Positions 89 to 27,474 of a DNA stretch of 64,000 bases are shown here, piece by piece. The translations under genes were made by a program, and so were the position numbers. Numbering within the stretch: the stretch's first letter is position 1; every line of letters begins with the position of its first letter. A model generated the notes under the pieces. That model was not told the origin of the DNA and searched no databases. It was given only the letters and a program-made list of their open reading frames with translations. Location of the stretch: the NCBI GenBank assembly GCA_947625475.1, contig CANQOL010000012.1, forward strand, positions 1 to 64,000, in the 5' to 3' direction. This DNA comes from an uncultured Acetatifactor sp. (lineage in GTDB: Bacteria; Bacillota; Clostridia; Lachnospirales; Lachnospiraceae).

Positions 89-1481
89 TTATCCCCCCGG
101 TATACTGTCCGCCACGCACAACGCCCCGTATCCAACCCTGTCGTTGGGATAGGCTTCCTCCCCCCGGATAGGCTTCGCTCCGGCCCGCAGATACGCCTTC
201 AGCTTCTCCCCGTACAGGAAAGGGTCCTGCCCCCGCACGATCCCCCACTCCATCAGCAGCGCCGCGCTCCCCGTGACAATAGGCGTTGCAAAGGAGGTCC
301 CCGTCACCGGCTGATAGCCCCCATAGAGGTCCGGGGCCAGGATCCCCACCCCGGGGGCCGCCAGATCCGGCTTGGTAAGCCCGGAGGGAGCCACCCCCAC
401 CATCCTGCGGGGATCCACATATCCTCTCCCGGAGAAATCCGCATATGCCTCGTAGGATGCGTCGCAGGCCCCCACCGTAATCACCTTTGCCGCAGTGGAG
501 GGAATGGTCAGCGTCACATCGGGGGTGGGATTATAAAAAGCGGTGCGCAGGCTGCGGGCTCCCTGGGCCGGCAGATAAAAATAGTATTCCCCCGTGACCA
601 CCCGCACCGGATCGATCTCAAACTGCCAGACCCCGCTGTCAATATAGCTTCCCCTGAGGGGAAGAAGCTCTAAATAAATTTCCTGGGCTGCCGAGTAGGG
701 AGCCGGCTCCCCGAAATACACCAGCACCTGTGTCCCCTCCAGGGTGAGGGTGTATTTTCCCTGCTCCGCCAGACTTGGAAGCTCCAGAGAGATACCGCCG
801 GGCGAGCGCAGACGGATCCGGTATCGGTCGGAGAAATCCTTCCAGAGCTGGACGCTGAGGGAGGTCTCATACTCCCCCACCGCCAGCTCCACCACTCTGG
901 AGCTCTCCACATTTCCCGCCACATGTCCGGCGGAATCCCCCTCATTGCCGCTCCCCACACAAATCACCGTCCTGCCGATCTCGGCCGCATTGTCCAGAAA
1001 GCGCTCCAGCAGGGAGCTGCCGTCGTGGGAGCCGTAGCTGTTGCCGAAGCTGAGATTAACCGCCAGAGGCCGTCCCAGGGAAACCGCCTTTTTCACCGCA
1101 TAGGCCACGGCCCGCATGATCTGGGTGGTCCTGGGAAAGCCCTGGGCCTGGGGGGCCCCCAGCTTCACCACAAGAAGCTCCGACTGGGGAGCAATCCCGC
1201 TGTATGCCTGCGTCCGGCTCCCCGCCGCAATACCTGCCACCGCGGTGCCGTGTCCGCTCACATCCCGGCTGGGCACCAGCCGGTAGGCCGCCTGGGAGGT
1301 GGGCGCCTGCAGGGCCAGATTGATCTGCTCCCGGTCAAACTCGATTCCCCTGGCAAAGCCCTGGGGCGGGCCCCAGCCGGTGTCCGGGTAGCTTTGGGGA
1401 TCCAGGCTCTGGTCCCAGAGGTACAGGATCCGGCTGGCCCCATCCGCCCTGCGGAAGTCCTCCCGCCGATAATCAATCCCC
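89..1481 (-). CDS. C-terminal half of a split S8 subtilase (Csp-like)
   Basis: This is about 460 codons of a subtilisin-family serine protease without its own N-terminus. It begins at IDYRRED, the sequence expected right after the catalytic-Asp motif. It contains the His motif (SGHGTAVAG) and the Ser motif (GTSFATP), so it holds two of the three catalytic residues. The missing prodomain and Asp motif lie at 8547-8164 on the same strand. Joined, the two pieces give about 590 residues, the usual size of Csp-type clostridial subtilases, which act in spore germination or related processing. The open frame extends upstream to 1783, but that part overlaps the recombinase in another frame and has no protease similarity, so I exclude it. 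As it stands the half-gene has no recognisable ribosome binding site and is probably silent until the element excises. The Csp assignment comes from architecture; another S8 subgroup is possible. Confidence 0.85.
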
Positions 1482-1501
1482 TCTCCCGCAAAATAAGTGC
1501 A
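1478..1501 (-). other. Left junction (attR-like) of the intervening element
   Basis: Read on the minus strand, the element end runs TGCACTTATTTTGCGGGAGA, then GGGG, then ATTGATTATCGG, which is subtilase coding sequence. The TGCACT half-site is mirrored at the other junction (8144-8149). The boundary was set by where subtilase similarity starts. Confidence 0.75.
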
Positions 1502-1511
1502 AAAATTTTTC

Positions 1512-3941
1512 TCAGGGCCCACCTCCCCTGGCCCCGGCCCCCTGTCCATGGCTCTTTTCGTAGGCGGCCGCCCTTCGGAGGGCCTCCCCCCTGCGGGAGC
1601 GGGAGCCTTCTTCCCACGGGGCTCTCCCCCCGAAAAGGCTCTCCCCCAGATCCTTGTTTCCCAAATATCCGCCTCCGAAAACTCTCTTCCCGGGGCGTCC
1701 GTCCTCAATGGCACCTTCCCGCGGCATACTTCCTCCGGCCCTTTTCCCTCTCTGAACCTGCGCGAAATCCTCCCGGGACACAAGGGCCGGATGCTGGTTC
1801 GGGAACACCTGCCAGCTCTCCCTGGCCTTCAGGCGGTTTCTCCCCCCCACCCGCTCCCTCTCATATTTTCCGTAGACCATATCCCCTGTGTACACGGGAT
1901 CCCTCAGAATCCGGCAGACGATCCCCGGGCTCCAAAGGGGCTTTCCGGCCTTAGGCCAACCGGGTTTCACCGGCCTGATCCCCCTTTTGAACCCGGCGGG
2001 TGTTTTCACTTCCCTCCGGTTCAGCGCCCGGGCGATCTGCCCGGAGGACGCCCCCGCCAGGGCCATGGCAAAAATCTCCCTGACCACCTGCGCCTGGGCC
2101 GGGCACACCGTCAGCCGATGCCTGTCCCCCTTCTCCCTCTCATAGCCGAAGGGCACGCCGCCGCTCACCCACTCTCCCGCCGCCCGGCGCGCCCCCAGCG
2201 CCTCCTTCACCTTTGCTGAGAGATCCCTGCTGTAGAGATCGCCCAGCAGGCTCTGAAAGCATGTCTCTAAAGACCCGCCCGCCGCCCGGCCGCTGTCATA
2301 GCCGTCGTTCACGGAGATAAACCGTACCCCCAGGCGGGGCAGGATCCGGTTCAGATAATCCCCCAGCTCAATGTAATCCCGGGAAAAACGGGAGAAATCC
2401 TTCACCAGGATACAGTCCAGCTCCCCCGCCCGGGCCTTTTCCAGCAGGGCGGCCACCCCCGGCCTTTCCAGGCTGGTGCCCGAATACCCGTCGTCCCAAA
2501 ACTCCAGGATCTGACAGCCCTCCAGATGCCTGACGGCAAACTCCCGCAAAAGCTCCCTCTGCCTGGCGATGCTGCCGCTCTCCCGCCTCTCAGGCTCCGG
2601 GAGGGTGCCGCCCCCGCCGGCCGGGCCCTCATCCGCCTTGGACAGGCGCATATAGAGGGCAGCCCGGTACTGCCTGCCCTGCCCCTTCCGGTTTCCCCGC
2701 TGTTCCTCTTTCCGCTGTTCCTCTTCCCGCTGTTCCTCTTCCCGCTGTTCCTCCTTCCGCTGTCCGCAGGCTGATGTTTTTCTCTCCCCCTGGGGAGCGG
2801 TCCCCTTTTCCCCTGAGGCCCCCGTCTTTTGTCCGGCATACCTCAGTCCCGCCTGCAGTCTTTGATGTGCCAGCCCTCGCCCATGTCCTCGCCCGGCGGC
2901 CTCCTGTCCGGGCGGGGCTGTCCCTTTTGCCGGCGTCCCCGGCCGTGACCCGTCTCCCCTCTTCCCCGATCCCCTGGAGGGGAACGGCCCGCTTCCTCTC
3001 CCTGTGCCCTTCCCCTCCCCCAGGCCCGCGCCGCCTTCCCCCCTGTCCCCCGCTTCCGCCGTCCCGGCCTGTGCCAGCCGAAACATCTCCGCCGTCACCA
3101 GCGCCTCATGGCTTTTTTCTCCTGTCCCGCCCAGGAATCCCAGATACACCGGATTTCCCAGCAGTGCCCTGAGGGTGCCGGGGGACCAGCGCCCAAGCGC
3201 CTCCCCCGGCGCCCTGAACACATGTCCCAGCCTTCCAAAGTCCCGGGGAGTGTGGACCTGTCCCTCCCAGAGCCGGGAGGCCATCCAGGCAAGGCTTCTT
3301 CCCTCCCCCGCCCGGGCGAACAGCTCCCTGACCACATCGGCGGCCTCCCTTTGGGGCTCCAGATACCGCAGCCCTCCCGGCCCCCTCTCCACCCGATAGC
3401 CATAGGGGGCCCGGGCGCCCAGGTAATCCCCCCTCTTTCTCTGCAGCCGGCGGACGCTCCGCACTTTCATGGAAATATCCCTGGCATACAGATCATTGAT
3501 CAGATTCCTCAGGGGAAGCTCCAGCCCCTCCCGCCCCTCTCCCAGGCTGTCATAATTTTCTGCCAGGGAAATAAAGCGGACGCCCAGGCAGGGGAACACC
3601 TTCTGAAGATATCTGCCCGTCTCAATGTAATCTCTCCCCAGCCGGGAGAGATCCTTGACGATCACACAATCCACCCGCCCCGCCCGGATGTCCCCCATCA
3701 GTCTTTGAAAACCCGGACGCTCAAAATCGGTTCCCGTCCTGCCCAGATCCCGGTAGCATCCCCACAGTCTCATGTCCCCGCGCTCCTTCAGCCATGCCTG
3801 CGCAATCTGGATCTGTGTCTCGACGGACTCATTTTTCCTGACATAGCTGCCCAGCCGGCGCTCCACCGACAGCCTGGCATAGATGCCCACAGAATAGATC
3901 TTCCTTCCCCCGTTCTCTCTCTTAAGGCTCTCCATCCCCAT
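1512..3941 (-). CDS. Fused tandem large serine recombinase (two modules)
   Basis: This 809-residue protein contains two complete recombinase modules. The first (about residues 15-300) has the catalytic-Ser strand YARLS and a resolvase core (KDLSRLGRDYIETGRY), then a recombinase domain. A low-complexity linker (about 310-440) ends in repeats of EEQRE. The second module (about 440-740) has YMRLS, KDFSRFSRDYIELGDY and another recombinase domain. Neither shows the Cys-rich zinc ribbon of typical large serine recombinases. Large serine recombinases cut and rejoin DNA at short att sites and are usually 450-600 residues with one catalytic domain, so this fusion is unusual. It starts 5 bp after the stop of the upstream recombinase, in the same operon, and lies beside the left junction. 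Either ATG at 3941 or the next one 6 bp on could be the start. It is a strong candidate for the excision/integration enzyme. Confidence 0.85.
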   Translation of the reverse strand: MGMESLKRENGGRKIYSVGIYARLSVERRLGSYVRKNESVETQIQIAQAWLKERGDMRLWGCYRDLGRTGTDFERPGFQRLMGDIRAGRVDCVIVKDLSRLGRDYIETGRYLQKVFPCLGVRFISLAENYDSLGEGREGLELPLRNLINDLYARDISMKVRSVRRLQRKRGDYLGARAPYGYRVERGPGGLRYLEPQREAADVVRELFARAGEGRSLAWMASRLWEGQVHTPRDFGRLGHVFRAPGEALGRWSPGTLRALLGNPVYLGFLGGTGEKSHEALVTAEMFRLAQAGTAEAGDRGEGGAGLGEGKGTGRGSGPFPSRGSGKRGDGSRPGTPAKGTAPPGQEAAGRGHGRGLAHQRLQAGLRYAGQKTGASGEKGTAPQGERKTSACGQRKEEQREEEQREEEQRKEEQRGNRKGQGRQYRAALYMRLSKADEGPAGGGGTLPEPERRESGSIARQRELLREFAVRHLEGCQILEFWDDGYSGTSLERPGVAALLEKARAGELDCILVKDFSRFSRDYIELGDYLNRILPRLGVRFISVNDGYDSGRAAGGSLETCFQSLLGDLYSRDLSAKVKEALGARRAAGEWVSGGVPFGYEREKGDRHRLTVCPAQAQVVREIFAMALAGASSGQIARALNRREVKTPAGFKRGIRPVKPGWPKAGKPLWSPGIVCRILRDPVYTGDMVYGKYERERVGGRNRLKARESWQVFPNQHPALVSREDFAQVQRGKRAGGSMPREGAIEDGRPGKRVFGGGYLGNKDLGESLFGGRAPWEEGSRSRRGEALRRAAAYEKSHGQGAGARGGGP
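2698..2772 (-). repeat. 15-bp tandem repeat in the recombinase linker
   Basis: About five imperfect copies of a 15-bp unit (plus strand CGCTGTTCCTCTTCC) encode a run of EEQRE/KEEQR pentapeptides. They form a charged flexible linker between the two recombinase modules. Copy number could vary by slippage in steps of five residues without breaking the frame. Confidence 0.8.
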
Positions 3942-3946
3942 TTCCC

Positions 3947-5644
3947 TTATTTTCCCCCATTTTCCTCATCTTCCCCATTTTCCTGCCTGACTGCCTTCCG
4001 AGGCCAGCCCCCCTTTGACCCCCCGCAGGCTTCACACCCCTCACCGTTCTTCTGCCCTGAAAGCTCCACCTGGATCCGGCCTCCCTCACAGACCCAGATT
4101 CTCTCCACCGCCCCGAGCCGGGCCCGGTTCAGCCTGCTCTCACAGACCTCCGCCGGTACCGTTCTCTCCTTTATCAGAGCCTGCTCCTGGCGCCGAATGG
4201 CTTCCTCCAGGCCCTGCTGGCGCTCCCGGTAGATTTCCTCCAGCGCTTCCCCCTCTTCCCCGCTCAGGGCCCCGCCCTTCACATCCTCCCTCACGCAGCT
4301 TCTCAGGAAAGGATAGCGCGCCGCCTCCCGGCGGACTCTCTCAAGCTCCGCCTCCAGCAGGGCGGTCCTATCCTCCCCCAAAATCCTTCCGCCGCGGGAT
4401 CCGTACCGCCCAAGGACCGCCCCGGGCTCCCGCTCACAGCCGCCCAGGCCCTCCCCTTCGGACTTCTCTCCTTCCTCCTTCCGCTCCCGGAGCTTCAGGC
4501 TCTCTTCCACCTGGCGCTCCAGTTCCTCCCTCCGGATCGTATGCCGCCCGCAGCCCCCTCCCCGGTTGGCGGTGCCGCAGATGTAGGACACCCTCTCGGC
4601 TCCTTCCCGGCGACAGCTTCTGCGCACCATGGTCCCCCCGCAGTCCCGGCAGTACAATAGCCCGGCAAACAGATCAATCCCACAGTCCCCGCCCGGCCGG
4701 GCCCTGCACCTGCCCAGCTCCTGAACAGACCGAAACTCTTCCGGGGACACAATGGCCTCATGGGTATGCTCCGCTCTCACCCACTCTTCCCTCGGGCGCA
4801 TCCTGCGGATCTTCGTCCTGTGGCTGAGCTTACAGCTTTTCCCCTGAACCAAAGTCCCGGTGTAGGTCTCGTCGGAGAGGATCCTGCCCACAGCCGCGCC
4901 GGACCAGCGGCTGAAGGGATGGACCGCAAAGCCAGTGGCAAAATTCTCCCCCCGGCAGCGCCTGTACTCCAGCGGGCATAGGATTCCCCGCAGGTCAAGA
5001 CGCCTGGCGATCCCCAGGGCGCTCATGCCCTCCCTTCGCCAGGCAAATATGTCCCGCACCACCATGGCGCCGTAGGGCTCCGGCGTCAGCCTCCCCCGCT
5101 GCGACGGATCCCGCCTGTATCCGTACACCGGAAAAGCTCCGATGAACTCCCCTCTCTCCCGCCGGATCCTCTGCTGGCTTCTCACCTTCTGGGAAATATC
5201 CAGGCAGTAAGCGTCGTTGACAAAATTTTTTACCGGCACCACCAGGGAGGTCTCCCGATAGTCCGCTGTCAGCGAGTCAAAACGGTCCGTCACCGCGATA
5301 AAGCGCACACAAAGAGCCGGAAAGATCCTCTGTATCAATCTTCCGGCCTCGATATAGTCCCGTCCCAGGCGGGAGAGATCCTTTACCACCACACAGTTGA
5401 CCTTTCCGGCCCAGATATCCGCCATCATCCGGCGAAACTCCGGCCTGTCGAAATCCGCCCCTGAAAAGCCCTCATCCACGTAGGTGTCGTACACCTCCAT
5501 ATCCCCCTGCTCCCGGACAAATCCCCCGCAGAGCTCCCTCTGGGAACGGATGCTGTTGCTCTCCGCCTGCCAGTCATGCCTTCCCTGATCCTCCCGGGAG
5601 AGCCTCACATAGATCCCCGCCCTATAGCCTGTCTTTTCTTCCAT
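3947..5644 (-). CDS. Large serine recombinase with zinc ribbon
   Basis: This 565-residue protein has a standard large serine recombinase layout: an N-terminal resolvase domain with catalytic Ser in YVRLSREDQ and KDLSRLGRDYIEAGRL, a recombinase domain (about 170-290), a zinc ribbon (YCRDCGG and YICGTANRGGGCG, about 330-375), then a Glu/Arg-rich probable coiled coil (about 385-500). It is the first recombinase of the element's operon, 5 bp upstream of the double recombinase. Together they supply three catalytic modules, like the serine recombinase triplets on some Firmicute integrative elements. Only this protein carries the zinc-ribbon/coiled-coil region that controls recombination direction in relatives such as phiC31 integrase, so it may be needed alongside the double protein. 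The ATG at 5644 has only a short AGGA close upstream. Confidence 0.9.
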   Translation of the reverse strand: MEEKTGYRAGIYVRLSREDQGRHDWQAESNSIRSQRELCGGFVREQGDMEVYDTYVDEGFSGADFDRPEFRRMMADIWAGKVNCVVVKDLSRLGRDYIEAGRLIQRIFPALCVRFIAVTDRFDSLTADYRETSLVVPVKNFVNDAYCLDISQKVRSQQRIRRERGEFIGAFPVYGYRRDPSQRGRLTPEPYGAMVVRDIFAWRREGMSALGIARRLDLRGILCPLEYRRCRGENFATGFAVHPFSRWSGAAVGRILSDETYTGTLVQGKSCKLSHRTKIRRMRPREEWVRAEHTHEAIVSPEEFRSVQELGRCRARPGGDCGIDLFAGLLYCRDCGGTMVRRSCRREGAERVSYICGTANRGGGCGRHTIRREELERQVEESLKLRERKEEGEKSEGEGLGGCEREPGAVLGRYGSRGGRILGEDRTALLEAELERVRREAARYPFLRSCVREDVKGGALSGEEGEALEEIYRERQQGLEEAIRRQEQALIKERTVPAEVCESRLNRARLGAVERIWVCEGGRIQVELSGQKNGEGCEACGGSKGGWPRKAVRQENGEDEENGGK

Positions 5645-5664
5645 TTCCTGCGCCCGGACAAAAT

Positions 5665-5704
5665 CCGGCCCCCGCTATGTCCCTTCAACATATGCGGGAG
5701 CCGG
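5665..5704 (-). terminator. Stem-loop after the glycosidase-like gene
   Basis: On the minus strand CCGGCTCCCGC and its near complement GCGGGGGCCGG form a long stem, followed by ATTTTG. It lies between the glycosidase-like gene and the recombinases and could separate cargo from recombinase transcription. Confidence 0.5.
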
Positions 5705-5765
5705 ATCGTCCCATTCCTGACCGCAGAAATCCGCGGGTCTTTTTCTCAAATATTCCGCGCAGGCG

Positions 5766-7178
5766 CTACAAAACCACGCCGGGCGCCTCGTAGCGGATCC
5801 GAAATACGGGGGGCGCCGTCAGCTTCTCCCGATAATTCACCGCCCAGTCCTCACTGCCGTCCTGCCGGTTCTCCCCCTCTGCAGGAGTGGCAAAAATCCG
5901 GATCTTCACGGTCTCTCCCGGGGCGGCGGGCCGCTTGAAGAAGGCCGGCATCATGTCCACGGTCTTCACCTGGGGAGCCTTGTAGAACCACCGGTCCCGG
6001 CACTGGATCATCAGGCACAGCGGCTCCTCCACCGTGATCTCGAAAAACTGAGGCATTCCCTCCAGGACAATCTCCGTCTCCAGCCCCTCCGCATCCTCGG
6101 AGCCGCCCCACCGCAGAGCGGCAGGGAAGGCGCATTCCTCCCCGGCCTCCATGGCAGGCATAAAATAGGGATCAAAGAGCAGCTCCCGGTAATCCTCCAA
6201 AATAGGCTGTTCAATGCCCACAGAGGCATTGTTGGGATCCTCGATTTCCAGCCCAAGCCGTCCTCTGTCCCGGAACTGATATAGGGAAATCCCCTGGAAC
6301 CAATCTGCCTTCCGATCCCGGACCATATGGGCAAAGCGCTTCACCGAATCCCCCTGGGCCAGAGGGCCCGTCACATCCCCGTCCGCGTTGAATTCCGCCG
6401 TAGTCATGGGCTTGTCCCCACACAGCTCCCGCAGCCGCCGGGCTGTCCCCTCAAACTTTTGGAAATTCTTCTCCACGGTAGTGTAGGTGTACTGGCCGCT
6501 CTCCTTCTCCGCCACATCGTAGGGCCAGCCGAAGTGCAGGGCCAGATAGGCGTCCGCCGACCAGATATCCGCCGCCCGGTAAGCCTCCAGGAACTCGTCC
6601 TCATACTCCACCCGGCCGTCCTCCTTGATCATCCCGGCACAGAACACGGTGCTCACATTGGGGGCCTCCTCCTTCAGGATCCTTTGAAAACGCACGAAGA
6701 ACCTGCCTACCTCTTCATAGCTGAAACGCCTGTTGTGGGTAAACCAGTTCCCCGCACACTCATGGTTGATCCGGATCCTCATCCGGCCAAAGGGCCGCAG
6801 ATCCCTGGCCACCTGGCGCAGCTCTTCATCGCTCAGGGAGCAGTCCACCGTCAGGGTCAGCAGCACATCCTGGCCGTGGCGGCGGATATCCCGCATCTGC
6901 TCAAAGGGCTGCCCATCCGCCCCGTAAGGAAAATAGTCGTCATAGGGATAATCCCACTGAAAATGTATCTCCATATCCCGGCAGGCCTGACTGATCCTCT
7001 GAGGCCACTGCTCGTCGTGGGGATAGAGGGTGTACATAATATTGACGCAGCGGTGGGGTCTTCCCAGCTTCTGCAGGATATAGTCCTGACACACATACTC
7101 CGCCCTCTCGCTGCCGTCCCCCAGGTCCAGGCCGCAGAGAGCCGGTCCCATATGGACTCTGCGAAAAATCTGCTCCAT
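5766..7178 (-). CDS. Putative glycoside hydrolase, TIM-barrel (GH-A clan-like)
   Basis: This 470-residue protein has no signal peptide. Its middle resembles clan GH-A glycosidases such as GH26: RIRINHECAGNWF looks like the strand-4 motif with the acid/base Glu, and TTAEFNADGD like the strand-7 nucleophile region. The last ~120 residues look like a beta-rich accessory domain. The role would be cytoplasmic cleavage of a short glycoside, but I cannot name a substrate and family assignment is uncertain. The start is well supported by GGAGGACAAGGT before ATG. It lies 17 bp downstream of the short-chain dehydrogenase in one operon, and both are cargo of the recombinase element. A polysaccharide-related enzyme on such a small element is unexpected, as these usually carry little beyond recombinases. 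Confidence 0.6.
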   Translation of the reverse strand: MEQIFRRVHMGPALCGLDLGDGSERAEYVCQDYILQKLGRPHRCVNIMYTLYPHDEQWPQRISQACRDMEIHFQWDYPYDDYFPYGADGQPFEQMRDIRRHGQDVLLTLTVDCSLSDEELRQVARDLRPFGRMRIRINHECAGNWFTHNRRFSYEEVGRFFVRFQRILKEEAPNVSTVFCAGMIKEDGRVEYEDEFLEAYRAADIWSADAYLALHFGWPYDVAEKESGQYTYTTVEKNFQKFEGTARRLRELCGDKPMTTAEFNADGDVTGPLAQGDSVKRFAHMVRDRKADWFQGISLYQFRDRGRLGLEIEDPNNASVGIEQPILEDYRELLFDPYFMPAMEAGEECAFPAALRWGGSEDAEGLETEIVLEGMPQFFEITVEEPLCLMIQCRDRWFYKAPQVKTVDMMPAFFKRPAAPGETVKIRIFATPAEGENRQDGSEDWAVNYREKLTAPPVFRIRYEAPGVVL

Positions 7179-7195
7179 ACCTTGTCCTCCGTATC

Positions 7196-7996
7196 CTAGG
7201 GCCTCAGACCCATGCCGCCCTCCAGGGTCAGGGTCTCTCCGCTCATAAACTTAAAGTCAGGGGAAGCCAGCTGCACGCACACCCGCCCGATCTCCAGCTC
7301 GGAGTCGCCGTAATGGCCCATGGGAGGCATATGCACGTTTTTCTCAAAGGCATCGGGATAGGCCTTCTGGAACTGCTCCAGCTGAGCGGTCCAGGCCAGA
7401 GGGCAGATCACGTTCACGTTGATGCCGTCCTTGCCCCACTCGTTGGCCGCCACACGGGAGAGACCCCGGATCCCCTCCTTGGCAGCCGCGTAGGCACACT
7501 GCCCGAAGTTGCCGAAAAGCCCTGCCCCGGAGGCAAAGTTGATCACGGTCCCCTTGGTCTCCTTCAGATAAGGATAGCAGGCCTTCATGTAATAGAATAC
7601 CGCGTACAGGCCGGAGTACATGGCCAGATTGAACTGGTCGGTGGTGTGCTGGGCCAGAGGCACCCCGGAGGCAGATGCCTGGGCGTTGTTGATCAGCACG
7701 TCGATCCGTCCAAAGGTGTCCACGGTCTGTCTGACCACCTCTCCCACCACAGCCTCATTGTCCGCGCCCGCGTTCACATCGGCCTGGAGGATCAGCACCT
7801 TGATGCCGTAGAGGCGCTCCAGCTCTTCCTTGGCGTCCTCCAGCTTTTTTACGTTGCGGCCGGTGATGACCAGATTGGCCCCCTCCTTGGCGTAGGCGGT
7901 GGCGATGCCGTAGCCGATGGAGCCGCACCTGCCGTCACTGAGCACGGCCCGGCCTGCTCCTGTAATGATTGCTGTCTTTCCTGTCAAAAATCCCAT
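7196..7996 (-). CDS. Short-chain dehydrogenase/reductase (SDR)
   Basis: This 266-residue classical SDR is an NAD(P)-dependent oxidoreductase. It has the N-terminal cofactor motif (KTAIITGAGRAV, then GSIGYGIA), the NNAQ motif (DVLINNAQ), and the catalytic Tyr-Lys pair (CAYAAAKEGIRGLSR). The start at 7996 (MGFLTGK) is chosen because GGAAGGAAGAG sits just upstream and the fold begins there; the longer open frame adds 44 unrelated residues. The ~17-residue stretch between TGAGRAV and IGYGIA is longer than usual and resembles enoyl-ACP-reductase-like SDRs. It is the first gene of the element's cargo operon, behind its own promoter near 8070, followed by the glycosidase-like protein. Substrate unknown; a sugar or polyol is a guess from the neighbour. 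Confidence 0.85.
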   Translation of the reverse strand: MGFLTGKTAIITGAGRAVLSDGRCGSIGYGIATAYAKEGANLVITGRNVKKLEDAKEELERLYGIKVLILQADVNAGADNEAVVGEVVRQTVDTFGRIDVLINNAQASASGVPLAQHTTDQFNLAMYSGLYAVFYYMKACYPYLKETKGTVINFASGAGLFGNFGQCAYAAAKEGIRGLSRVAANEWGKDGINVNVICPLAWTAQLEQFQKAYPDAFEKNVHMPPMGHYGDSELEIGRVCVQLASPDFKFMSGETLTLEGGMGLRP

Positions 7997-8068
7997 TGTT
8001 TCTCTTCCTTCCTTTTTGTGTATTGTGTCTGGAACCGCGCCCCTTGTCTCCAGGGCTGAATCATAAAC

Positions 8069-8077
8069 AGTATAACA
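8069..8077 (-). promoter_or_regulatory. Extended -10 promoter for the element cargo operon
   Basis: TGTTATACT (TGn plus TATACT) lies on the minus strand about 75 bp upstream of the dehydrogenase start and inside the element. The -35 region is weak (TTTTAA at 17 bp). It would allow the cargo to be transcribed independently of the split subtilase. Confidence 0.5.
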
Positions 8078-8124
8078 GACTTTCCCGGATTTTAAAAGAA
8101 CAATTTGCATTTTTCGCGGCTGTT

Positions 8125-8547
8125 TCATCCGCCGCCCGGCCGCTGCACTAATCTCCCGCCATCCCCCGAGTCAATGACGGCCACCAGAGTACCCTCCCCG
8201 GTCAGGTACGGCTCCCGGAGGGTCGCCGGATAAATACAGGAAAACGCCTTGGCTTCCTCCAGAGAGTAAAAGAAGCGCTTGGGCTTCTCCATATACTCGA
8301 TCTCCTCCCGGGCGGCCACCTGTTCCACTTTTCCCTCCGGGACGGTCAGGATGGCGTAGCCGGCGATCAGCCTCTCCACCTCCACCCCCTCCTGTTCCAG
8401 GGCCTCCAGGCTGCCGTGATACTTAACGATCACCTCCCAGGTCCTCTCCCGGCTGTCAAAGCCCACATTCAGGTTCTCCGTCTGCTCCCGGACCTGCTCG
8501 GGAGTCTCCAGGGCTAAATTCAACATATTTTCTATCTTCTGACTCAT
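8125..8547 (-). CDS. N-terminal half of the split S8 subtilase
   Basis: This 140-codon frame encodes the subtilase prodomain and first catalytic motif. About 120 residues of propeptide-like sequence (including EVIVKYHGSLEAL and IAGYAILTVPEGKVEQV) are followed by GTLVAVIDSG, whose Asp would be the first triad residue. After IDSG the frame enters the element and stops 12 codons later. The start at 8547 is set by GGGAGGCAAG just before ATG; the upstream in-frame codons are unlikely to be used. If translated now it would give a catalytically dead propeptide-like fragment of 140 residues. With the element excised it joins the fragment ending at 89, giving about 590 residues with the full Asp-His-Ser triad. 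Confidence 0.85.
   Translation of the reverse strand: MSQKIENMLNLALETPEQVREQTENLNVGFDSRERTWEVIVKYHGSLEALEQEGVEVERLIAGYAILTVPEGKVEQVAAREEIEYMEKPKRFFYSLEEAKAFSCIYPATLREPYLTGEGTLVAVIDSGDGGRLVQRPGGG
8144..8167 (-). other. Right junction (attL-like) of the intervening element
   Basis: On the minus strand, subtilase codons for VAVIDSG run into GGGGG, followed by element sequence ending AGATTAGTGCA. AGTGCA is the inverted copy of TGCACT at the opposite end, and both half-sites lie 22 bp from the centre of the deduced circular site. The frame then reads 12 foreign codons to a TGA at 8125. Confidence 0.75.
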
Positions 8548-20000: not shown

Positions 20001-23000
20001 ATAGAAGGCAGGTGTCACCTCATATTTGTTGGTAAAGAGAATCTTCGATGCAGAAGATCCGGCCGCCTCATAGGAAGAGGCTGCCTCCAGCACACCGTCG
20101 TTATTATCCGTTACCACCACGGTCCAGGTCCATTCTGTGTTATCATAGGTAAATCCGTTTTCACTGTCGGCCTTTTCTTTCACTGTAAACTGATAGATGC
20201 CCGGTTTGGTAAAGATCAGATTCCGATCCGTAAAGCCGCCCCAGTCCGCCGAGTCCGTTCCCTTGGAAACCGTAACGGTAAACTCAGTGCCATCAAAGGA
20301 TGTATCGTCTGTGCTCTGGCTGCTCGACCGAAGAAGCACGTACTGTTTCAGGGCCGTCAAGTCCGAATTTTGATTCATCTCCGCCGCCCAGTCGAGGGTA
20401 AAGGTAAATACCTTATCTGTCGTCAAACGGGCTCCCTCCACCTGCTTGGTCACCACCGGAACGGCTTCCGCCTCCTGCGGGTTGTAAGTGTTTGTAACCG
20501 TTATCACAACACTATTTTCCTTGATCTCTGCCGAAGTAGGATCAATACTGGCCGTATAGCCAGGGTATGACCCTGTCTCATCCACCTTGCACTTAGTGCC
20601 TACAGGCAGATCGCTGAAGGTAATGCTTTCCCCGTCTTTCAGAGTAAAGGCGGCTGTCATATAAGTGCCGTTGTTATTGTTTGTCAAACTCAAGGTGCCG
20701 TCAGAGGACGTGCCGCTGGTGCCGCCGGTCTTCGTGTAAGAAACCGTGCTCAGCTTCACTCCTTTAGGAGGTGTGAGTGTGGCCGTAAACGAGAACTCTC
20801 TGTCATCATCCTTGCCAACTACCTCCTTAGTCACCGTCAGATCTCCCAGCTTGTGGGTGTTGGTAAACTTCACCTCAGCCGTGCCGCTTCCGATTGTGCC
20901 AGAACCCACGCCTTCACTCGGCTCCACCGTGTAGCGGGAAGTGTCTGTGCCTTTCTCCGTCACCTCGTATGCAGTCCCCTGTGGCAGTCCCACAATCGTC
21001 AGGGAATGTCCCCCCTGAAGAGTCACAGCTGCTTCGCCATTCACATCAAATGACAAAGTCTTCTCATACGGCGGCACTGTATCACTGTCCTCGTAATAAT
21101 AAAAGGTTTTTGCCAGAGGACTACCATCCTTTGTCAGTTTGACCGTAAAGGTAAATTTTTCCTCCGTATCAACGCCTGTCACCACCTTTGACAAAGTCAG
21201 AGATCCAGTCTGAGGCGTGTTGGTGACTGTCACATTTTCTTTCGCCTTATCGCCATTCAACTCCACCTGAGCCTGGGAGGTCGGCGATCCTGCAGGAGTA
21301 TAGCCTACATCATAGGTATAGGTATTCTCTGAATTATCTTTCTCCGTCACAACAGCCTTGGTTCCTACCGGCAGGCCCTGAATCTGCAGAGAGCCTCCCG
21401 CCTTGAGCGTAACCTCCGTCGCAAGAGCAGTCTCTGCCCCCTCCGCCTGGAAGGTAATCGTTCCCTCACCTGCCGCAGGGGTCACGCTGTCCGTTCCTGT
21501 GCAGGAGAAGGTTCCCGTGAGCGGTTTGTCGCCGTAGGTCAGCGTGACCTCCAGCGTATAGGTTTCGCCATCCGTCTTGATCTGATCCGAGTTCACTTCC
21601 TTTTTAATGAAAAGGGACGCCGTCTTGTGAGCGTTTGTGATTGTCACAGAGCGGTCTTTCAGGATATCATCACCGGTTCCCTGTTCTGCTCCAATCTCAA
21701 AGGATCCAGTCGTCTCCTTTGCCTGGGGATCCGCCAGTTCATAGGACGCAGTATACCTGGTATCCAAAGGAGAGCCCAGTTCTTCCGTTACGCTTACTTG
21801 AGTTCCCAGAGGCAGGCCCTCTATTTTAGCACTCTGTCCCTTTTTCAGGGTCAGGGTTCCGACAAATGTCCCGTCACTGCCTGCCAGCGTAATACTATGC
21901 GGCTTCGTCGGATTCTCAGGGGTTACGGTATAAGAATATTCACTATCCAGTATCACACCCGCAGGCGCAGTGAGTTCCACTTTGACGGTAAATTCTTCAT
22001 CCCCGTCATAGGCTTCTGAATTATTCTTTCCGTTTAACGTAATCTTCTTGGAGACTGTCAAGGAACCTGTATCCAGGTCTCCTGTGATGCGGGCAAGGCC
22101 ATAACGCTTGTTGGTATACTCCGGCGGCGTGTACTCGCCCGATCCCGTCAGCGCAGCAGCGCCGCTCCCCGGGGCCAACATGCCCAAATAAATGATTCCT
22201 TTTGTCTTGTCCGTATCCGCGTAATAGGTTGCAAAACCAGCCTGGTAATTGGAATTCCCGGCTTCTTTCTCGGTCACATATGTATTATACTCATCGCTGA
22301 TATTACTGTTATTTGCCTCAGTGCTTATGTCAAGAACCTGTACCTGATCGGCAAAATGGAAGATTGCAGGTGCTGTCGTATTACTGTTCTTTTCCAATGT
22401 GTATTGACCGATAGGCAGACCCTTGGCAGTACTATCATACAAGAAACTAGAATTCTTCTCCAGTTTCCCATACAAGCGGACGCCATCTGCCGTCTTTTCC
22501 ATATTATCAGGCACCGAATTGTCAGGCACCGAAGTACTTCCCCATACATTGGCAAGATCAGAAACCTTTGCGCTGACAGTAAATGTCCCTGCTGTCTCTT
22601 TGGAACCGCCATAACTGCGCTTCAAATCCGCACTGTAGGTGAGCATCTCGTCCTCATACCCATGTTCATTCAGGTATGTAATAGTCCGCCCATCGATCAA
22701 CATCTCCAGCACGATCTCACCCTTGACAATCTGGGTGGTATAGGTGCCACTGGCCTGCAGCAACTCTTCATTAAAGGTCTGTTCATCACCTGCCGCAGGC
22801 TTACGCTCAGGATTCCACCGATAAGTTTCTTCCTCCTGATGAATCTCTTTATTAAGGTGCTCTCTGTCCGCTTCCCCCGCAGCTGATGTTTCCAAAATGC
22901 CTGCTGTCTCTTCATTCTTGGTTGGCAGCGGAACATACCGCACATACAGAGCTGACCTTCTTAAGTCTGTATCTGTTGTTTCTTTGCTTTCCGAATCCGG

Positions 23001-26000
23001 ATAACCCTTGGCATCCCCGCCGCTGACGGTCTCCCACTTAAAGAACAATGTTCCAAGCCGATCTTTTTCGTGGTCAACTGTACCTGTCTGCGCCGTTTCG
23101 CCCTCATCAGGCAGATAGTAATAAGGCAATTCCAGTTCACTTTTACTCTCCGCAATAGCAGCTATTATACTCTTGAAATCAGAGTAGTCTGTCTTGCCGG
23201 ATTTTACCAAGCGCTTCAGATAATCCCAATACCACTTTGTAGGAGTTTCCTCCCCGTCAGCCCACTCCTGAAGAATAGTGCTCCAATTGTCAGTGACTTT
23301 TTCAACGGTCAGTTTTTCTCCCATGAAGATCAGCTGCTCGCCGTTTCCCATTTTCAGTTCCGGCACCGTTACGTTGACTGTGGTCCTGGGGAAACCCTTG
23401 GAAGGATTTTGTCCCTCTGTTTTCTTAGCCTTTTCAGTGCCAGAAACGTTTTCGTCTTTGTTGAGAGAATCATCAGGGTCACACACAGCAGGGTCATATA
23501 CAAAGTTTTGAATCGCATCGTTGCCATTGGTCAGCACTGCATTGCCGCCAATAAAATCTTCCTTGGCCTGCACCGTCACCCGCGCATTCCAAACTGCCAG
23601 CCTGGGAGCATTTTCACTGCAGCCAGGAATTGTCTGATCTGTCCACCGCAAATAATACATATTATTTTCATTATCATAGTACAGTGTCGCATTTGTTCCC
23701 TCCAGAGAAGAATCAGAAGAATCCGAAAGGACAATCTTCTCTCCTACTGTTGCGGATAATGTATTTGATAACGGGGTTTCGCCAACCGTCACCTTACCGC
23801 CGTTTTCCAGCTTCCATACATTACCCCCTGCATCTACCAGATTAAACCGGGGATCTATGTAGTCCTGGACGGCATAAGATTCCAAATTGTCCGCAATTTC
23901 CTTTGTGATTTGGTCAAAAATATCCAACAGATCATCTGTGCCATTAGCAACATAAACATTTTGATAATTTGTTCCTTTGCTTCCTTTTACATTAGCAGGA
24001 TCTCTATCTACTGTGTCCCAGTCTTCCTCGCCTGACAACGCCGCCAGAAATTTCAAAGACTGATTATAATCCTTCGTACCTTCCGCCACGCTGCCTCCTG
24101 CCAGCATCACAGTAAAAATAGTGTAATTCTTCTCACCGCGAAGGCTCTCCGCGGTCTTATATGCATCCAGTCCTTTTATTTTATCATTTAGGACCTCGTC
24201 ATTTTGTCCCTTCATTGCTGCGCTTAAACGCGTATCTTTTCCGTCCGTAAAAATAATCAAATATCTTTTCTCACCATCAGCCGGCTTATCTGCTAACTGC
24301 TCCTTAAACACTTTTAAGCCTGTATACGTATCTGTTCCGCCTGTAAGACTATAATTATACTGCTGTATTCCTCCCAAAGACACGTCAGAGCTTCCAGTCG
24401 TGCCTACATTATCGCCTATCTCTTTTCCCCGCGTTAAATTCATCATACCAGCGCTTTCACTCGCATCGCTAGTCCAGTCCTGTAATATAAGTTTTAAGTA
24501 TTCAACTTCACTATTAGTTAAATCCCGAATTTTTTCCGAGCTAAATCGCACCGCTGAAATCTTGCTGGTAGGGGATGACGCCTCCAAATTGGTGACAAAC
24601 CGTCCCAATGCTTGCTGCAGGGATTCCGCCTTGGTTATCGAATTATCATTTTTTCGATAAACATACGACCACCCACATCGGTTTTCCTCGTTGCCTCCAT
24701 TATTAAAGAAGCAACACAAATCCCCCTCTTCGTTTACAAAGAAACGAAGAGGTCCATTTCCATTATATCCTAGTGAAGTACTCGGATTGTAATCATATGC
24801 TGCGGTGCCATCTGTATATTTATCGGAAATCTTGTCGCTGTTCTTTCCGCCATAGTAATAATGTAAATCACCTCCGCTATTTTTTTTCTGATCCAAAATC
24901 CCGCGGAAATTCTTTGCCGTACCCAGGCGCATATTATTCTGATCCCAATCCGACGTAGAATTGACATAGTACCAACCGGCCAAATTGTCATTACTGCCAT
25001 TTCGAACAGCGTATTGTTTTTCATCAAGTGTCGCAACGTTCTTTCCATTTAACTGAAAATAATTTCGATTATTACTATCATCCTTTAGCCAAATCTCTTT
25101 GCTTTTTTGTTTTCCTTTCTTTTGAATTGTGTATAGCTTATTAACTTCATCCAGATTTAATGCACAATCAAAAACATATATATCATCTACATAAATACTG
25201 CTAGAATCATACAAATCACTGACACCATTTAATACAATATTAATATCTTTCCCTAATTCAATTGACCCAGTATTTATGCTATTTAAATCCTTTGATACAC
25301 TCCCATCCTCATATATATTTAATGTTTCTCCATCATATACTACTGTCACATAGAGTGGTTCCTGCTCTTTAAATACCTCACGCAACTGGACAATTTGATT
25401 GGTATTTTCCTTTCCTACACTTGATATAGCCAGATGATTTCTACTGCTTCCATATCTGCGATATATATTTATCCCCGTTGCCGACTTCAAAGGACCAATA
25501 TATATCATGCTATCCGTTGGGGTTGTTTTTTTTGCATCGTCACCTTCATATTTTTCAGAATCTTTCTTGGGTTTGTGCAACTTAAATGCTATTGTAAACT
25601 CCCCACTTTCAGGAACTGCATCCAGCAACAATCCCCTCTCTGCCGGAGTGTTACCAGCTGCATATGATGTATCAAAACCCTCAGCCGTATCGAAATGATA
25701 ACTACTATCCTGCTTAGTTACCTTGGGTCCTATTTCTGAAAATGAATCATCGCTACTCGCTACCTGCCCTACCGAATTTGCGTAATCCATCGTTACCAAA
25801 TTTAGCGCCCAGTCTCTTGAAGTATCATCATGTTCTCCCTTTTGGAAGGGATAAAATCCTATTAATTTATCAGGTTGAGGAAATTCATCAACGTAAGTTT
25901 TTTCTGTCACACCATATCCGCCATCCCAATACCCAAGCGGAACATATTCATTTGTTTCAGGCCGGGCATCAAAAATATAGTAGGTGTAGTCATTGTAGCT

Positions 26001-26387
26001 CATTTGAGAATAGTCTGTATTGTGAGGATCCATGAGTTCCTTCAATTGTTCCGGCGTAAGGAACCATTCCTCTTCAAACTCTGTCTTCCCCGTTGTAAGT
26101 GCGTCAAGTTTGTGGACGCTCTCCCCCGCAAGTGTATTACCTTCAACCTTAATCTTATTATCTTCAATATTTTCCTTTGCAAAAGCCATGCTGCCGGAAG
26201 CATCCAGCACCATGCCCACATTGGCAGTATTGTTCCCTACAAACCAGGACTCAAGATCCAGATCAAAGGTACGCCCATCATCCTTAAATTCTTCCCGCTC
26301 GGTGACACTGGCCGTCTTGTCCGTATGCAAACCTTCAGTTGTACGGTAAAATTTTACAGTATTAAGGGAAATTACATCCCATATACC
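17055..26387 (-). CDS. Giant LPXTG adhesin body (VWA, LamG, Cna-B/FctA-like repeats)
   Basis: About 3,110 codons of a cell-wall-anchored surface protein. From the N-terminus: a von Willebrand A domain with MIDAS motif DASGSM near residue 80 (numbered from 26432); an insertion of ~500 residues with a LamG-like sandwich (about 250-450); the rest of the VWA domain (GGTDTYTG, IIFTDGKDT); then from about 1450 to 2920 ten Cna-B/DUF5979-like and FctA-like repeats (GLPxGTxxxVTE, EFTN and GIYxFxVxE patterns). A Gly-Asn-Val-Ser-rich insert lies near 2740-2800, a Pro/Thr wall-spanning region near 2927-3047, then LPKTE, a hydrophobic helix and RGRKKK, a sortase signal. No sortase gene is in the window. 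The layout matches pilus-tip or stand-alone adhesins. It lacks a start and signal peptide, which lie in another frame upstream of a run of nine G; one G fewer gives a ~3,396-residue protein. The 5' third is clearly AT-richer than its surroundings. Confidence 0.9.
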   Translation of the reverse strand, partial: GIWDVISLNTVKFYRTTEGLHTDKTASVTEREEFKDDGRTFDLDLESWFVGNNTANVGMVLDASGSMAFAKENIEDNKIKVEGNTLAGESVHKLDALTTGKTEFEEEWFLTPEQLKELMDPHNTDYSQMSYNDYTYYIFDARPETNEYVPLGYWDGGYGVTEKTYVDEFPQPDKLIGFYPFQKGEHDDTSRDWALNLVTMDYANSVGQVASSDDSFSEIGPKVTKQDSSYHFDTAEGFDTSYAAGNTPAERGLLLDAVPESGEFTIAFKLHKPKKDSEKYEGDDAKKTTPTDSMIYIGPLKSATGINIYRRYGSSRNHLAISSVGKENTNQIVQLREVFKEQEPLYVTVVYDGETLNIYEDGSVSKDLNSINTGSIELGKDINIVLNGVSDLYDSSSIYVDDIYVFDCALNLDEVNKLYTIQKKGKQKSKEIWLKDDSNNRNYFQLNGKNVATLDEKQYAVRNGSNDNLAGWYYVNSTSDWDQNNMRLGTAKNFRGILDQKKNSGGDLHYYYGGKNSDKISDKYTDGTAAYDYNPSTSLGYNGNGPLRFFVNEEGDLCCFFNNGGNEENRCGWSYVYRKNDNSITKAESLQQALGRFVTNLEASSPTSKISAVRFSSEKIRDLTNSEVEYLKLILQDWTSDASESAGMMNLTRGKEIGDNVGTTGSSDVSLGGIQQYNYSLTGGTDTYTGLKVFKEQLADKPADGEKRYLIIFTDGKDTRLSAAMKGQNDEVLNDKIKGLDAYKTAESLRGEKNYTIFTVMLAGGSVAEGTKDYNQSLKFLAALSGEEDWDTVDRDPANVKGSKGTNYQNVYVANGTDDLLDIFDQITKEIADNLESYAVQDYIDPRFNLVDAGGNVWKLENGGKVTVGETPLSNTLSATVGEKIVLSDSSDSSLEGTNATLYYDNENNMYYLRWTDQTIPGCSENAPRLAVWNARVTVQAKEDFIGGNAVLTNGNDAIQNFVYDPAVCDPDDSLNKDENVSGTEKAKKTEGQNPSKGFPRTTVNVTVPELKMGNGEQLIFMGEKLTVEKVTDNWSTILQEWADGEETPTKWYWDYLKRLVKSGKTDYSDFKSIIAAIAESKSELELPYYYLPDEGETAQTGTVDHEKDRLGTLFFKWETVSGGDAKGYPDSESKETTDTDLRRSALYVRYVPLPTKNEETAGILETSAAGEADREHLNKEIHQEEETYRWNPERKPAAGDEQTFNEELLQASGTYTTQIVKGEIVLEMLIDGRTITYLNEHGYEDEMLTYSADLKRSYGGSKETAGTFTVSAKVSDLANVWGSTSVPDNSVPDNMEKTADGVRLYGKLEKNSSFLYDSTAKGLPIGQYTLEKNSNTTAPAIFHFADQVQVLDISTEANNSNISDEYNTYVTEKEAGNSNYQAGFATYYADTDKTKGIIYLGMLAPGSGAAALTGSGEYTPPEYTNKRYGLARITGDLDTGSLTVSKKITLNGKNNSEAYDGDEEFTVKVELTAPAGVILDSEYSYTVTPENPTKPHSITLAGSDGTFVGTLTLKKGQSAKIEGLPLGTQVSVTEELGSPLDTRYTASYELADPQAKETTGSFEIGAEQGTGDDILKDRSVTITNAHKTASLFIKKEVNSDQIKTDGETYTLEVTLTYGDKPLTGTFSCTGTDSVTPAAGEGTITFQAEGAETALATEVTLKAGGSLQIQGLPVGTKAVVTEKDNSENTYTYDVGYTPAGSPTSQAQVELNGDKAKENVTVTNTPQTGSLTLSKVVTGVDTEEKFTFTVKLTKDGSPLAKTFYYYEDSDTVPPYEKTLSFDVNGEAAVTLQGGHSLTIVGLPQGTAYEVTEKGTDTSRYTVEPSEGVGSGTIGSGTAEVKFTNTHKLGDLTVTKEVVGKDDDREFSFTATLTPPKGVKLSTVSYTKTGGTSGTSSDGTLSLTNNNNGTYMTAAFTLKDGESITFSDLPVGTKCKVDETGSYPGYTASIDPTSAEIKENSVVITVTNTYNPQEAEAVPVVTKQVEGARLTTDKVFTFTLDWAAEMNQNSDLTALKQYVLLRSSSQSTDDTSFDGTEFTVTVSKGTDSADWGGFTDRNLIFTKPGIYQFTVKEKADSENGFTYDNTEWTWTVVVTDNNDGVLEAASSYEAAGSSASKILFTNKYEVTPAFYQPAVSKTVTGEDGLSRKDTFTFILTADENNPKGVDLPTVTTLPITVDAAAGTGNGTGTFDGIKFTEAGIYVFYIKEDQKSPLLGYNYDSSVWKLTVPVMDIGGKLQVGSVSYEKETGTGAPQTGAPQTVTEAAFTNQYQSVSLTVSKKVEGIFGDTSKDFSFELKLFDSAGEPLTGEYPYGVGEWTETDNRVQNGSLKFSLQDGQSLTVKGLPSGASYTVKETLGEGDEDKYAVSVRIGENSYQPSTLENEKQKLAENTEVIFTNESPVPVGWTPKVKKTIEGSMAPQTDTFNFELSSASKNVVVYTQSQEGVYKKLVDLATSVTGEGQGSFEELFFKEPGIYTFEVREKKPDAGSAPSEPAYTYEYDDSVWTWTVTVEENDHVLSVVTAVCEKNAEGETAGTTADMPEFTNVYHPAPVSYTPGVSKAIREKILKGAPHEEVSFAFTLEEQVENPEKLPEDYNNRVEISMEEGQLGPVTGSFGEITYTQAGTYRYTIAEEPSTAGGYTFDTSRWTLEVKVEEDVNHALQVTSHVYSKDGENPGEKVTDENGAQFVNIYEAPNGSLAVSKTVEETPASGTSPANEPNAQQPKNEVVGGGVSGSNMQGGSVSGGNAPGGNVSGGNVSGGNVSGGNPQGSPYTIGGSVSGGSGPVSENLGSHLEGGFNLLSETMPKNISGETKIRSDVTFGFTIELSDTGISGLYGAITFTDGIARVDLHDGETVTASGLPAGLTYTVTEDENKEYTSHYKGADGALTEGRITDGTVPANGEARADFVNVKKEEDNPPTQPTEEPTQPTEKPTQPTEEPAQPTEGPVNPTTEPTVNPSTEPTTGPAEEPTPAPTAAPTPAPTAAPTPAPTATPTPAPTATPAPAPTAAPTPAPTPAPAPQKTPGPTPEATATPEPVVTPVPAPSPSPEPLRDPNLTYDENGDVVDANRQKKLPKTEDPMPLAGAALLAALSAGIMAVLSERSQAASQGRGRKKK

Positions 26388-27246
26388 CCCCCCCGGTACC
26401 TGTAGATGAATACGCAGACAGATCCACGCCATCTATCGTAATATACTCACCCGATTCAGTTTTTTGCAACTGCTCCTCTATATATTTCTTCGCTTTTTCT
26501 TCCCCATTCGAATCACTTGCCAAAAAATACTTGTCATCGCTCCGGATTGCCGTTCCACCGATATTTTTGCCATCTTCTCTGCCGCCATGCTGCACAGTTC
26601 CGTCCGGATATGCGTAAACTAACTCTGTATCCTGTTCAGGGTTTGCCCCCACAAACAGGTTTGAGCTTCCTGCCACAGTGTCATCCGGCTGCCCTGCCAC
26701 ATACATACTTTCATTTCTGTAAAATATTTGACTCTTTACCAGATGAATATTAGGGTCATATGTGATAGTTAAAATAAGTGCATTTTCATCATAGGAAACT
26801 GCTTCATGTCCCGCAGACACAGAAAATCCTGAAAAAGATTCCAAAGCCTTTCCTTTGCTGTCCACACTGGGAGCTACATTAAACGTAATTGAGCCATTTA
26901 CCAAGTCAACAGCACTTACATGACAGTCGGAAGAGCCAATGTTCACCGGGGTCAGTGACTCATATTTATTCCCCTTCCCTTTTCTAACGAATATTTGATA
27001 GCCGCCGCCATCGGCATGTTCAATATATCCCTCTATTTCTTCTTCCTCCGGGGCCACTGTATGCCAATGTTTGACATAAAAGTGCAGCGCATTCTTCCCG
27101 TTAGTAGACTCAGATTCGTGCACTCCTGCCGCCTGGGCAGTCCCTCCTCCGATCCATTCCACCAGCGGACTCCCCAGAGAAGTAAAAAACATCGCCGCCG
27201 CAAAAACCATCGCCAACACTTTTTTCACAGTTCTCCTAGCCTTCAT
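26362..27246 (-). CDS. N-terminal segment of the giant adhesin (signal peptide)
   Basis: This 294-residue frame begins MKARRTVKKVLAMVFAAAMFF, a clear signal peptide with a cleavage site near TAQAAG. It continues with a secreted, beta-rich sequence and then reaches a GGGGGGGGG run encoding Gly-Gly-Gly, after which it stops within about seven codons. The next frame is the VWA/Cna-B giant protein, whose coding potential starts exactly at the run, so this is the N-terminus of the same gene. In the present nine-G state the product would be a short secreted protein with no wall anchor. The gene has its own promoter (27372-27400) and an ATG at 27246 preceded by GAGGTGAAAGA. No domain was recognised in the ~260 mature residues. 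Confidence 0.85.
   Translation of the reverse strand: MKARRTVKKVLAMVFAAAMFFTSLGSPLVEWIGGGTAQAAGVHESESTNGKNALHFYVKHWHTVAPEEEEIEGYIEHADGGGYQIFVRKGKGNKYESLTPVNIGSSDCHVSAVDLVNGSITFNVAPSVDSKGKALESFSGFSVSAGHEAVSYDENALILTITYDPNIHLVKSQIFYRNESMYVAGQPDDTVAGSSNLFVGANPEQDTELVYAYPDGTVQHGGREDGKNIGGTAIRSDDKYFLASDSNGEEKAKKYIEEQLQKTESGEYITIDGVDLSAYSSTGTGGGYMGCNFP
26386..26394 (-). repeat. Nine-G homopolymer at the adhesin frame break
   Basis: Nine consecutive C on the plus strand (G in the coding strand) lie at the exact point where the signal-peptide frame and the giant-protein frame meet. Eight or eleven G would fuse the frames; nine or ten would not. Such runs are classic slipped-strand phase-variation sites, but a sequencing error would look the same. 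Confidence 0.85.
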
Positions 27247-27371
27247 AGATCTCTTTCACCTCGTCTAAATCATTTTTTACATCACGCAAAGGCACTCAAG
27301 TAAATACCCGTGCCTTTTTCCGGTTTGTAAAATATATTTATGTTCTTCTTTCATCAGGAAGATGTAATTAG

Positions 27372-27400: not shown

Positions 27401-27474
27401 TCAATTCTGCCGGTTTTTTCCTGCTATTTCAATTATTATTTGTGCAATCTGTCCATTTGAATAAACCGGAAACG

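Follow-up and report, generated by a model that had tools for sequence, protein, structure and literature searches.

What becomes of a protease gene that is cut at its catalytic aspartate by an element full of recombinase genes: is the gene lost, or is it kept in two pieces until the element leaves? This question is raised by the start of contig CANQOL010000012.1 (C12) from an uncultured Acetatifactor sp. (Lachnospiraceae; GenBank assembly GCA_947625475.1, 3.09 Mb in 78 contigs), of which the first 64,000 nucleotides (referred to as the window) were analyzed. Here, a csp-like subtilase gene is split by an element with three serine-recombinase modules. Our analysis suggests that this is probably a retained intervening element of the skin/gin type, predicted to leave via a GG core in the sporulating mother cell and to restore the protease in doing so. 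Moreover, the split is not isolated: it belongs to a recurring family of insertions that strike several sites and several genes, which the original prediction, made from the letters of the window, could not show.

Both halves of the gene lie on the minus strand, where the original prediction had placed them (Table 1). The N-half comprises a CspB-type prodomain and ends in VAVIDSG, after which its frame runs on into the element up to a stop at 8125; it matches residues 1–127 of an intact orthologue (L007) at 67% (tblastn). The C-half carries the motifs IDYRRED, GHGT, SGNEG (with the oxyanion Asn) and GTSFATP, the Asp/His/Ser triad of S8 proteases being readable across the two halves. The intervening DNA, previously estimated at about 6.7 kb, measures 6,686 bp, and its three recombinase modules are encoded as one 565-aa protein and an 809-aa fusion of two. 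As had been proposed, the gene is likely a csp-like, germination-linked protease, since it matches PF18425, scores 311 bits against the NCBIfam CspBA model (NF040809) and has germination proteases as its best PDB relatives (i.e., 9sj6, "subtilisin-like serine germination related protease", 270 bits; and CspB 4i0w, 253 bits). The CspBA score comes from the C-half alone, covers positions 97–518 (the CspB part) of the 1,099 in the model and is below the cut-off of 1250; the score against the NCBIfam CspC model, which is named for a non-triad pseudoprotease, is likewise below its cut-off (173 bits vs. 675). SpoIVA was found in all eight genomes tested, that of the window among them.

The split is located inside the Gly codon that follows the catalytic Asp-Ser. 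Rejoining had been predicted to occur at a shared run of G residues and to restore IDSGIDY in frame, which holds for a two-base core but not for the whole match: the longest string common to both element ends is GGGGAT, and joining on all six bases creates a stop codon, whereas joining on GG yields TCG GGG ATT GAT at the junction, with IDSGIDY in frame and the joined flanks translating as EGTLVAVIDSGIDYRREDFRR. Moving both cores by one base leaves this product unchanged. The core was placed at GG because an element arm ending in GGAGAG abuts the same Gly codon in 6/10 C-halves compared, and because uninterrupted loci read DSG (35/37) or DTG (2/37) at this site (two genomes being counted twice among the 37). 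The split is also beyond what chance would produce, since the same codon is cut in other congeneric genomes and uninterrupted orthologues are common. A chance fusion at the contig edge was considered as well, as the window starts 88 bp past the C-half stop, yet both junctions lie inside the contig.

The original prediction hinged on an uninterrupted homologue existing in some relative, and many were found in the genus. Specifically, orthologues of about 590 residues without any interruption occur commonly, with dozens of the listed loci spanning the whole protein unbroken at 49–83% identity; a C-half query found a match in 35/41 genomes and a full-length orthologue query in 134 of the 138 congeneric genomes. 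Relatives that bear a name are mostly Lachnospiraceae metagenome-assembled genomes, a few labeled Acetatifactor, others Clostridium sp., Eubacterium sp. and, once, Gastranaerophilales. When an intact orthologue was mapped onto the loci, at least 13 of the 138 congeneric genomes proved to have the gene cut where an element ends (G000, G014, G048, G049, G083, G084, G106, G115, G120, G148, G149, G152 and G153). Besides the Asp codon (core GG), the cut positions lie near residues 288 (LD/NA, core AA), 537 (EW/GI, core GG) and 547 (FL/YG, core TA), and a fifth site near 573 (VG/WG) was seen from C-terminal fragments only, in G084 and G044. One and the same csp copy holds two elements or element ends in G115, G148, G152, G120 and G014. 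All ten junction pairs of which both ends were read have a common 2-nt core and are in frame on rejoining. Among 120 listed metagenome proteins, at least six begin at the Asp-site junction (P0021, P0024, P0032, P0052, P0065 and P0093), P0032 being the copy in G153.

Whether interrupted copies are left to decay could be followed in G115 and G048, two related species that share the Asp-site insertion. Along 6.28 kb, their elements agree at 84% of DNA positions; the alignment breaks off about 250 bp short of the C-half and picks up again in the element arm, the C-half DNA being 83% identical, and this pattern fits an insertion inherited from a common ancestor. Over 407 codons and with two methods, the two C-halves differ by 0.036–0.045 nonsynonymous (dN) and 1.23–1.28 synonymous (dS) substitutions per site, corresponding to a dN/dS near 0.03 that is approximate because dS is high. 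Constraint on the C-half after the split is nevertheless evident. G048 also represents the empty site for a second G115 element near 537, and an uncut metagenome protein (P0109) is about 91% identical to the G115 copy and likewise to the G048 copy. Moreover, a relative-rate test with the neighboring M18 peptidase as reference (G148 and G056 being partial) gave C-half/M18 distance ratios of 0.84–1.08 for eight interrupted and 0.92–1.18 for 16 intact copies, and N-half/M18 ratios of 0.95–1.25 for interrupted and 1.00–1.30 for intact copies. Judging from these rates, interrupted copies are not decaying, and simple inactivation, which the original prediction had kept as the other outcome, is disfavored. 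Finally, the cut metagenome protein P0065 equals the uncut, prodomain-bearing P0070 at 461 of 462 residues; the two come from contigs that differ in length, and one species, other than that of the window, exists in a cut and an uncut state, by excision or by strain difference.

Further arrangements were seen around the csp gene. In G014, a second insertion of about 96 kb is located near residue 547 (G014:C77:367422-463101; L066, L067), and the same gene also holds an Asp-site element with five recombinases. The Asp-site element of G048 and G115 carries, as cargo, a putative set of chemotaxis genes for CheR, CheB, CheA, CheW and a receptor (L082 1-6265 and L085 1189-7445; open reading frames named by eye). 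Orphan C-terminal csp tails stand beside element arms in G010 (L069 107-238) and G075 (L132), both of which have an intact csp; these genomes were left out of the interrupted count, and the tails may go back to old insertions that a second copy of the gene made good. In G075, the intact gene and the orphan tail beside a recombinase trio could have been the same allele in its uncut and cut state, but this was rejected because the common 113 nt are only 86.7% identical.

Table 1. Features of the split csp-like gene and its intervening element (window coordinates).
Feature	Position	Strand	Remarks
N-half, csp-like subtilase	8164..8547	-	CspB prodomain and catalytic Asp, ends VAVIDSG; PF18425 115 bits
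C-half, csp-like subtilase	89..1480	-	PF00082 99 bits; His, Asn and Ser motifs; stop 89-91
Left crossover core GG	8165..8166	-	Positions 1 and 2 of the Gly codon that follows Asp-Ser
Right crossover core GG	1479..1480	-	Matches left core
Intervening element	1481..8166	-	6,686 bp from core to core; its four open reading frames run in the direction of the split gene
Short-chain dehydrogenase/reductase (cargo)	7196..8128	-	PF13561 153 bits
470-aa protein (cargo)	5766..7178	-	No Pfam family, no PDB relative by sequence
Promoter-like dyad ATGGGAC-N13-CATATGTT	5687..5714	-	Ahead of recombinase genes
LSRC large serine recombinase, 565 aa	3947..5644	-	PF00239, PF07508, PF13408; catalytic YVRLS; zinc ribbon
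LSRA-LSRB fusion, 809 aa, two serine recombinase modules	1512..3941	-	PF00239 x2, PF07508 x2
Degraded -35 half of circle-junction promoter, TTTGCG	1487..1492	-	
Degraded -10 half of circle-junction promoter, GAGATT	8150..8155	-	

The recombinases of the window element comprise 1,374 open codons with three YxRLS catalytic serine motifs, the LSRA/LSRB fusion keeping both of its own (YARLS and YMRLS). Their GC content at third codon positions (GC3) is 0.75–0.76 vs. 0.77–0.80 for host genes, and such host-like values are expected of long residence. The zinc ribbon was matched by 8/9 modules of three relatives, two of these just under the cut-off. Moreover, a small conserved DUF6870 protein is encoded directly upstream of the recombinases in 22/24 elements (e.g., L109:9453-9761 and L112:4001-4273; the exceptions are G000 and G112). 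No paper on DUF6870 was found in the open literature searched, and our guess is that it might be a candidate directionality factor.

How such elements might be switched on was addressed by joining their arms as a circle. At sites 288, 537 and 547, this creates TTGACA-N17-TATAAT with at most one mismatch per box in 6/6 pairs, reading towards the recombinase genes. This recalls Tn4451/Tn4453, in which, as Lyras and Rood reportedly described in 2000, the serine recombinase TnpX is expressed from a promoter that arises at the circle junction; these transposons have TnpX as their single recombinase and a resistance cargo. Unlike in Tn4451, the circle promoter is degraded in the window element, where the junction would read TTTGCG-N17-GAGATT, i.e., three mismatches in each box and no circle-junction promoter by the measure used. 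The Asp-site pairs in general have a -10 half with 2–5 mismatches at this spacing (4/4), G115 having TATAAT three bases further on.

Yet the motif CATANNNT stands ahead of the recombinase operon in 5/6 Asp-type elements (vs. 0.67 in shuffles), and in 10/24 of all elements read (vs. 2.2). The same motif is present upstream of csp in 24/39 orthologues (shuffles giving 5.5 on average), whereas the reversed and complement controls stayed at the chance level. In the window, the dyad ends 43 bp before LSRC, in the layout seen before the DUF6870/recombinase operons of related elements. A wider form of it, AT(A/G)GGAC-N13-15-ATANNN(T/A), occurs 31 times in 1.21 Mb and 25 times within 500 bp upstream of a mapped gene; these 25 represent 23 distinct places before DUF6870 or recombinase genes and one before csp, two of the matches being the same DNA. 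The reversed pattern occurs five times in total, and none of these is upstream of mapped genes. Upstream of csp, a sigmaK-type box (AC-N15-17-CATANNNTA) was found in 2/39 orthologues (vs. 0.2 in shuffles, maximum 3) and a sigmaE-type box (ATA-N15-18-CATANNNT) in 4/39 (vs. 0.7, maximum 5), which is too few to choose between them. According to promoter descriptions for C. difficile, the -10 elements of sigmaE and sigmaK promoters closely resemble each other, with ATA as the -35 for sigmaE; ATA-N16-CATATATA is the sequence of one sigmaE promoter, and the csp operon fits the sigmaE consensus (PMC3789822).

Put together, the cutting would be done by a recombinase of the element, most likely by LSRC, which alone among those present has every domain, and the promoter-like dyad ahead of its gene would turn on its expression in the mother cell. 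Recombination at the GG core would then remove the element and restore a full-length protease, which may act in germination as CspB does in C. perfringens and C. difficile. Loss of the element would cost nothing in the mother cell, since this cell dies, and the spore would keep the element. Excision itself is what we infer from the sequence, and likewise its occurrence in sporulation.

With its catalytic-serine recombinase, a common core with an in-frame product, an uninterrupted orthologue and a target gene with a putative role in germination, the element displays several traits of the skin/gin type. It resembles gin, which leaves gerE of Bacillus cereus ATCC10987 in mid-sporulation, in being non-phage, in having three serine recombinases and in lying inside a sporulation gene with a short common core. 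As gin is described (PMC5595907), however, that element spans 28.6 kb and 31 genes, targets gerE, and has a 9-bp overlap and the directionality factor GirX, whereas the window element has 6.7 kb, a csp-like target and a 2-nt core; its relatives, which unlike the window element have DUF6870, strike one gene at up to five sites. Like skin in sigK of B. subtilis and C. difficile, it places a large serine recombinase in a probable gene of the mother cell that exit would restore, although skin is portrayed as prophage-like with one recombinase and sigK as target, its directionality factor in C. difficile being under sigmaE and SpoIIID (PMC5025042). With yin in yabG of C. botulinum it shares a cut sporulation protease gene and a recombinase gene that lies downstream of the 5′ part and is read in the same direction; the account of yin presents it as prophage-like, with one recombinase described and in one strain (PMC10747680), whereas the type found here is spread over several genomes, target sites and target genes. 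The open literature searched yielded no paper on an element of this kind inside csp. As far as these searches show, what is new is csp as a target, insertion at more than one codon of the same gene, copies with two insertions, and the range of sporulation-linked genes struck within one genus.

Genes other than this csp are interrupted as well. These are a CspA/C-like paralogue cut at its Asp site (G016, G147 and G153), a shorter subtilase that is presumably AprX-like (G019, G049 and, from a 12-residue tail only, G083), an M23 peptidase cut at two sites (G081; G084 and G095), Amidase_3 (G041, G085 and G120), a polysaccharide deacetylase (G084) and SpoVT (G112; TIGR02851 221 bits, cut-off 235.9). 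The SpoVT cut falls after about three residues and the element arm supplies a new TTG start, so the gene in G112 may still be active. A sporulation role of the deacetylase, amidase and M23 targets is possible. It is a tentative reading, with a chance somewhat short of even, that the genus uses DNA splicing as a general device, in which recombinase-trio elements would have been captured repeatedly, at up to five codons of the germination protease as well as in SpoVT, cell-wall enzymes and protease paralogues, and vegetative cells would keep their germination genes in pieces for the dying mother cell to splice; as part of it, a mother-cell switch would have taken the place of the circle-junction promoter in old Asp-site elements.

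A number of observations weigh against programmed excision of the window element. Neither the circle junction nor the rejoined junction is present in the window's assembly (allowing two mismatches). A circle pattern derived from the 288/537/547 arms, and thus unsuited to circles of Asp-site elements, matched 24 times in 21/138 genomes, in no case with element arms by eye; these matches resemble ordinary promoters and were rejected as circles. The upstream region of the window csp has no exact CATANNNT, and the dyad does not behave as a general host sigma box, a stricter form occurring 10 times vs. 26 times reversed in 12 genomes (i.e., no enrichment). DUF6870 was not found in the 64-kb window, and no directionality factor was recognized there. 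The LSRA/LSRB fusion shows no PF13408 and no CxxC, the zinc ribbon being gone from both modules, and the high GC3 of the recombinases could instead come from a GC-rich donor. No rejoined allele was seen for the species of the window: among the matches listed, the closest relative of the window C-half is a 486-aa cut form at 100%, the next being at 72%. For the related loci, only the right end of the G048 element was read, without recombinases, and in-frame rejoining is expected of any conservative serine-recombinase insertion and is by itself no evidence of selection. Moreover, the target survey was seeded with the window's recombinase, which biases its proportions; among 40 further recombinase loci (L102–L141) a target was identified in 17 and none in 23, and the cut gene in G006 encodes a flavodoxin. 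The window element is either dying, or LSRC alone works without DUF6870; the 1,374 open codons, the three catalytic serines and the host-like GC3 argue against a dying element.

An ordinary mobile element could use the conserved subtilase codons as its attachment site and inactivate the gene, and the halves would then look intact only for lack of time since a recent insertion. Sharing of one conserved coding site by many different serine recombinases does occur, as in the prolyl isomerase example given in PMC10083194, and the near-consensus circle-junction promoter of the 288/537/547 elements is a sign of live mobility; the two window modules that lost their zinc ribbon point the same way. Nevertheless, this explanation appears unlikely in view of the dN/dS in the shared interrupted C-half of G115 and G048, the relative rates of the eight interrupted copies, which match those of the 16 intact ones, and the host-like GC3 of the window recombinases. 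Alternatively, the gene might be switched reversibly in growing cells, independently of the mother cell, as a form of bet-hedging of germination. The near-identical cut and uncut proteins from one species would suit such phase variation, as would circle promoters, which would aid re-integration at other sites, and yin of C. botulinum is described as both integrated and excised at all time points (PMC10747680). At the Asp site, however, the -10 half of the circle promoter is eroded while CATANNNT precedes most of the recombinase operons, and no mixed state is seen in the window's assembly, making reversible switching improbable here.

The halves might also be made separately and form a permanent two-chain protease, with no need for DNA excision. 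CspB keeps its cleaved prodomain bound, and in several relatives the element arm has a TTG in frame with the C-half (TTGACAGGAGAGGG reads MTGEG), so that a separate start is conceivable. Yet the cut parts the segment with the catalytic Asp from the remaining domain, the N-half bears an element-derived tail, and the same gene is also cut near 288, 537, 547 and 573, where the pieces could hardly assemble. We therefore regard two chains as very improbable.

Programmed excision in sporulating bacteria has so far been described a few genes at a time. With related elements striking one likely germination protease gene at several codons and in many species, and with interrupted copies under strong selection, it becomes testable whether intervening elements are parasites in genes needed only by a dying cell, or germination-timing switches. 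Automatic annotation of gut spore-formers may wrongly call such split genes broken, which matters for predicting which gut bacteria form spores that germinate.

A phage origin of the element was considered and rejected, as there was no near match among 50,697 phage records and there are no phage genes in the element; a viral collection likewise contained no close relative of LSRC (single-protein query). Runs of serine recombinases were also seen on five short, unannotated human-faecal scaffolds named "Bacteriophage sp." (MT837953, MT837243, MT838759, MT837168 and MT836038; L196–L200), one of which has DUF6870 and none of which has a terminal repeat or a circle promoter (0/5 each). Such scaffolds are perhaps elements of this kind, not phages.

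Finally, the region from 22000 to 28000 of the window has a GC content of 40–47%, the rest of the contig being mostly at 52–64%. Recombinase-domain matches per genome amount to 30–45 in some congeners (G041, G042 and G014) vs. 4 in the window's genome.

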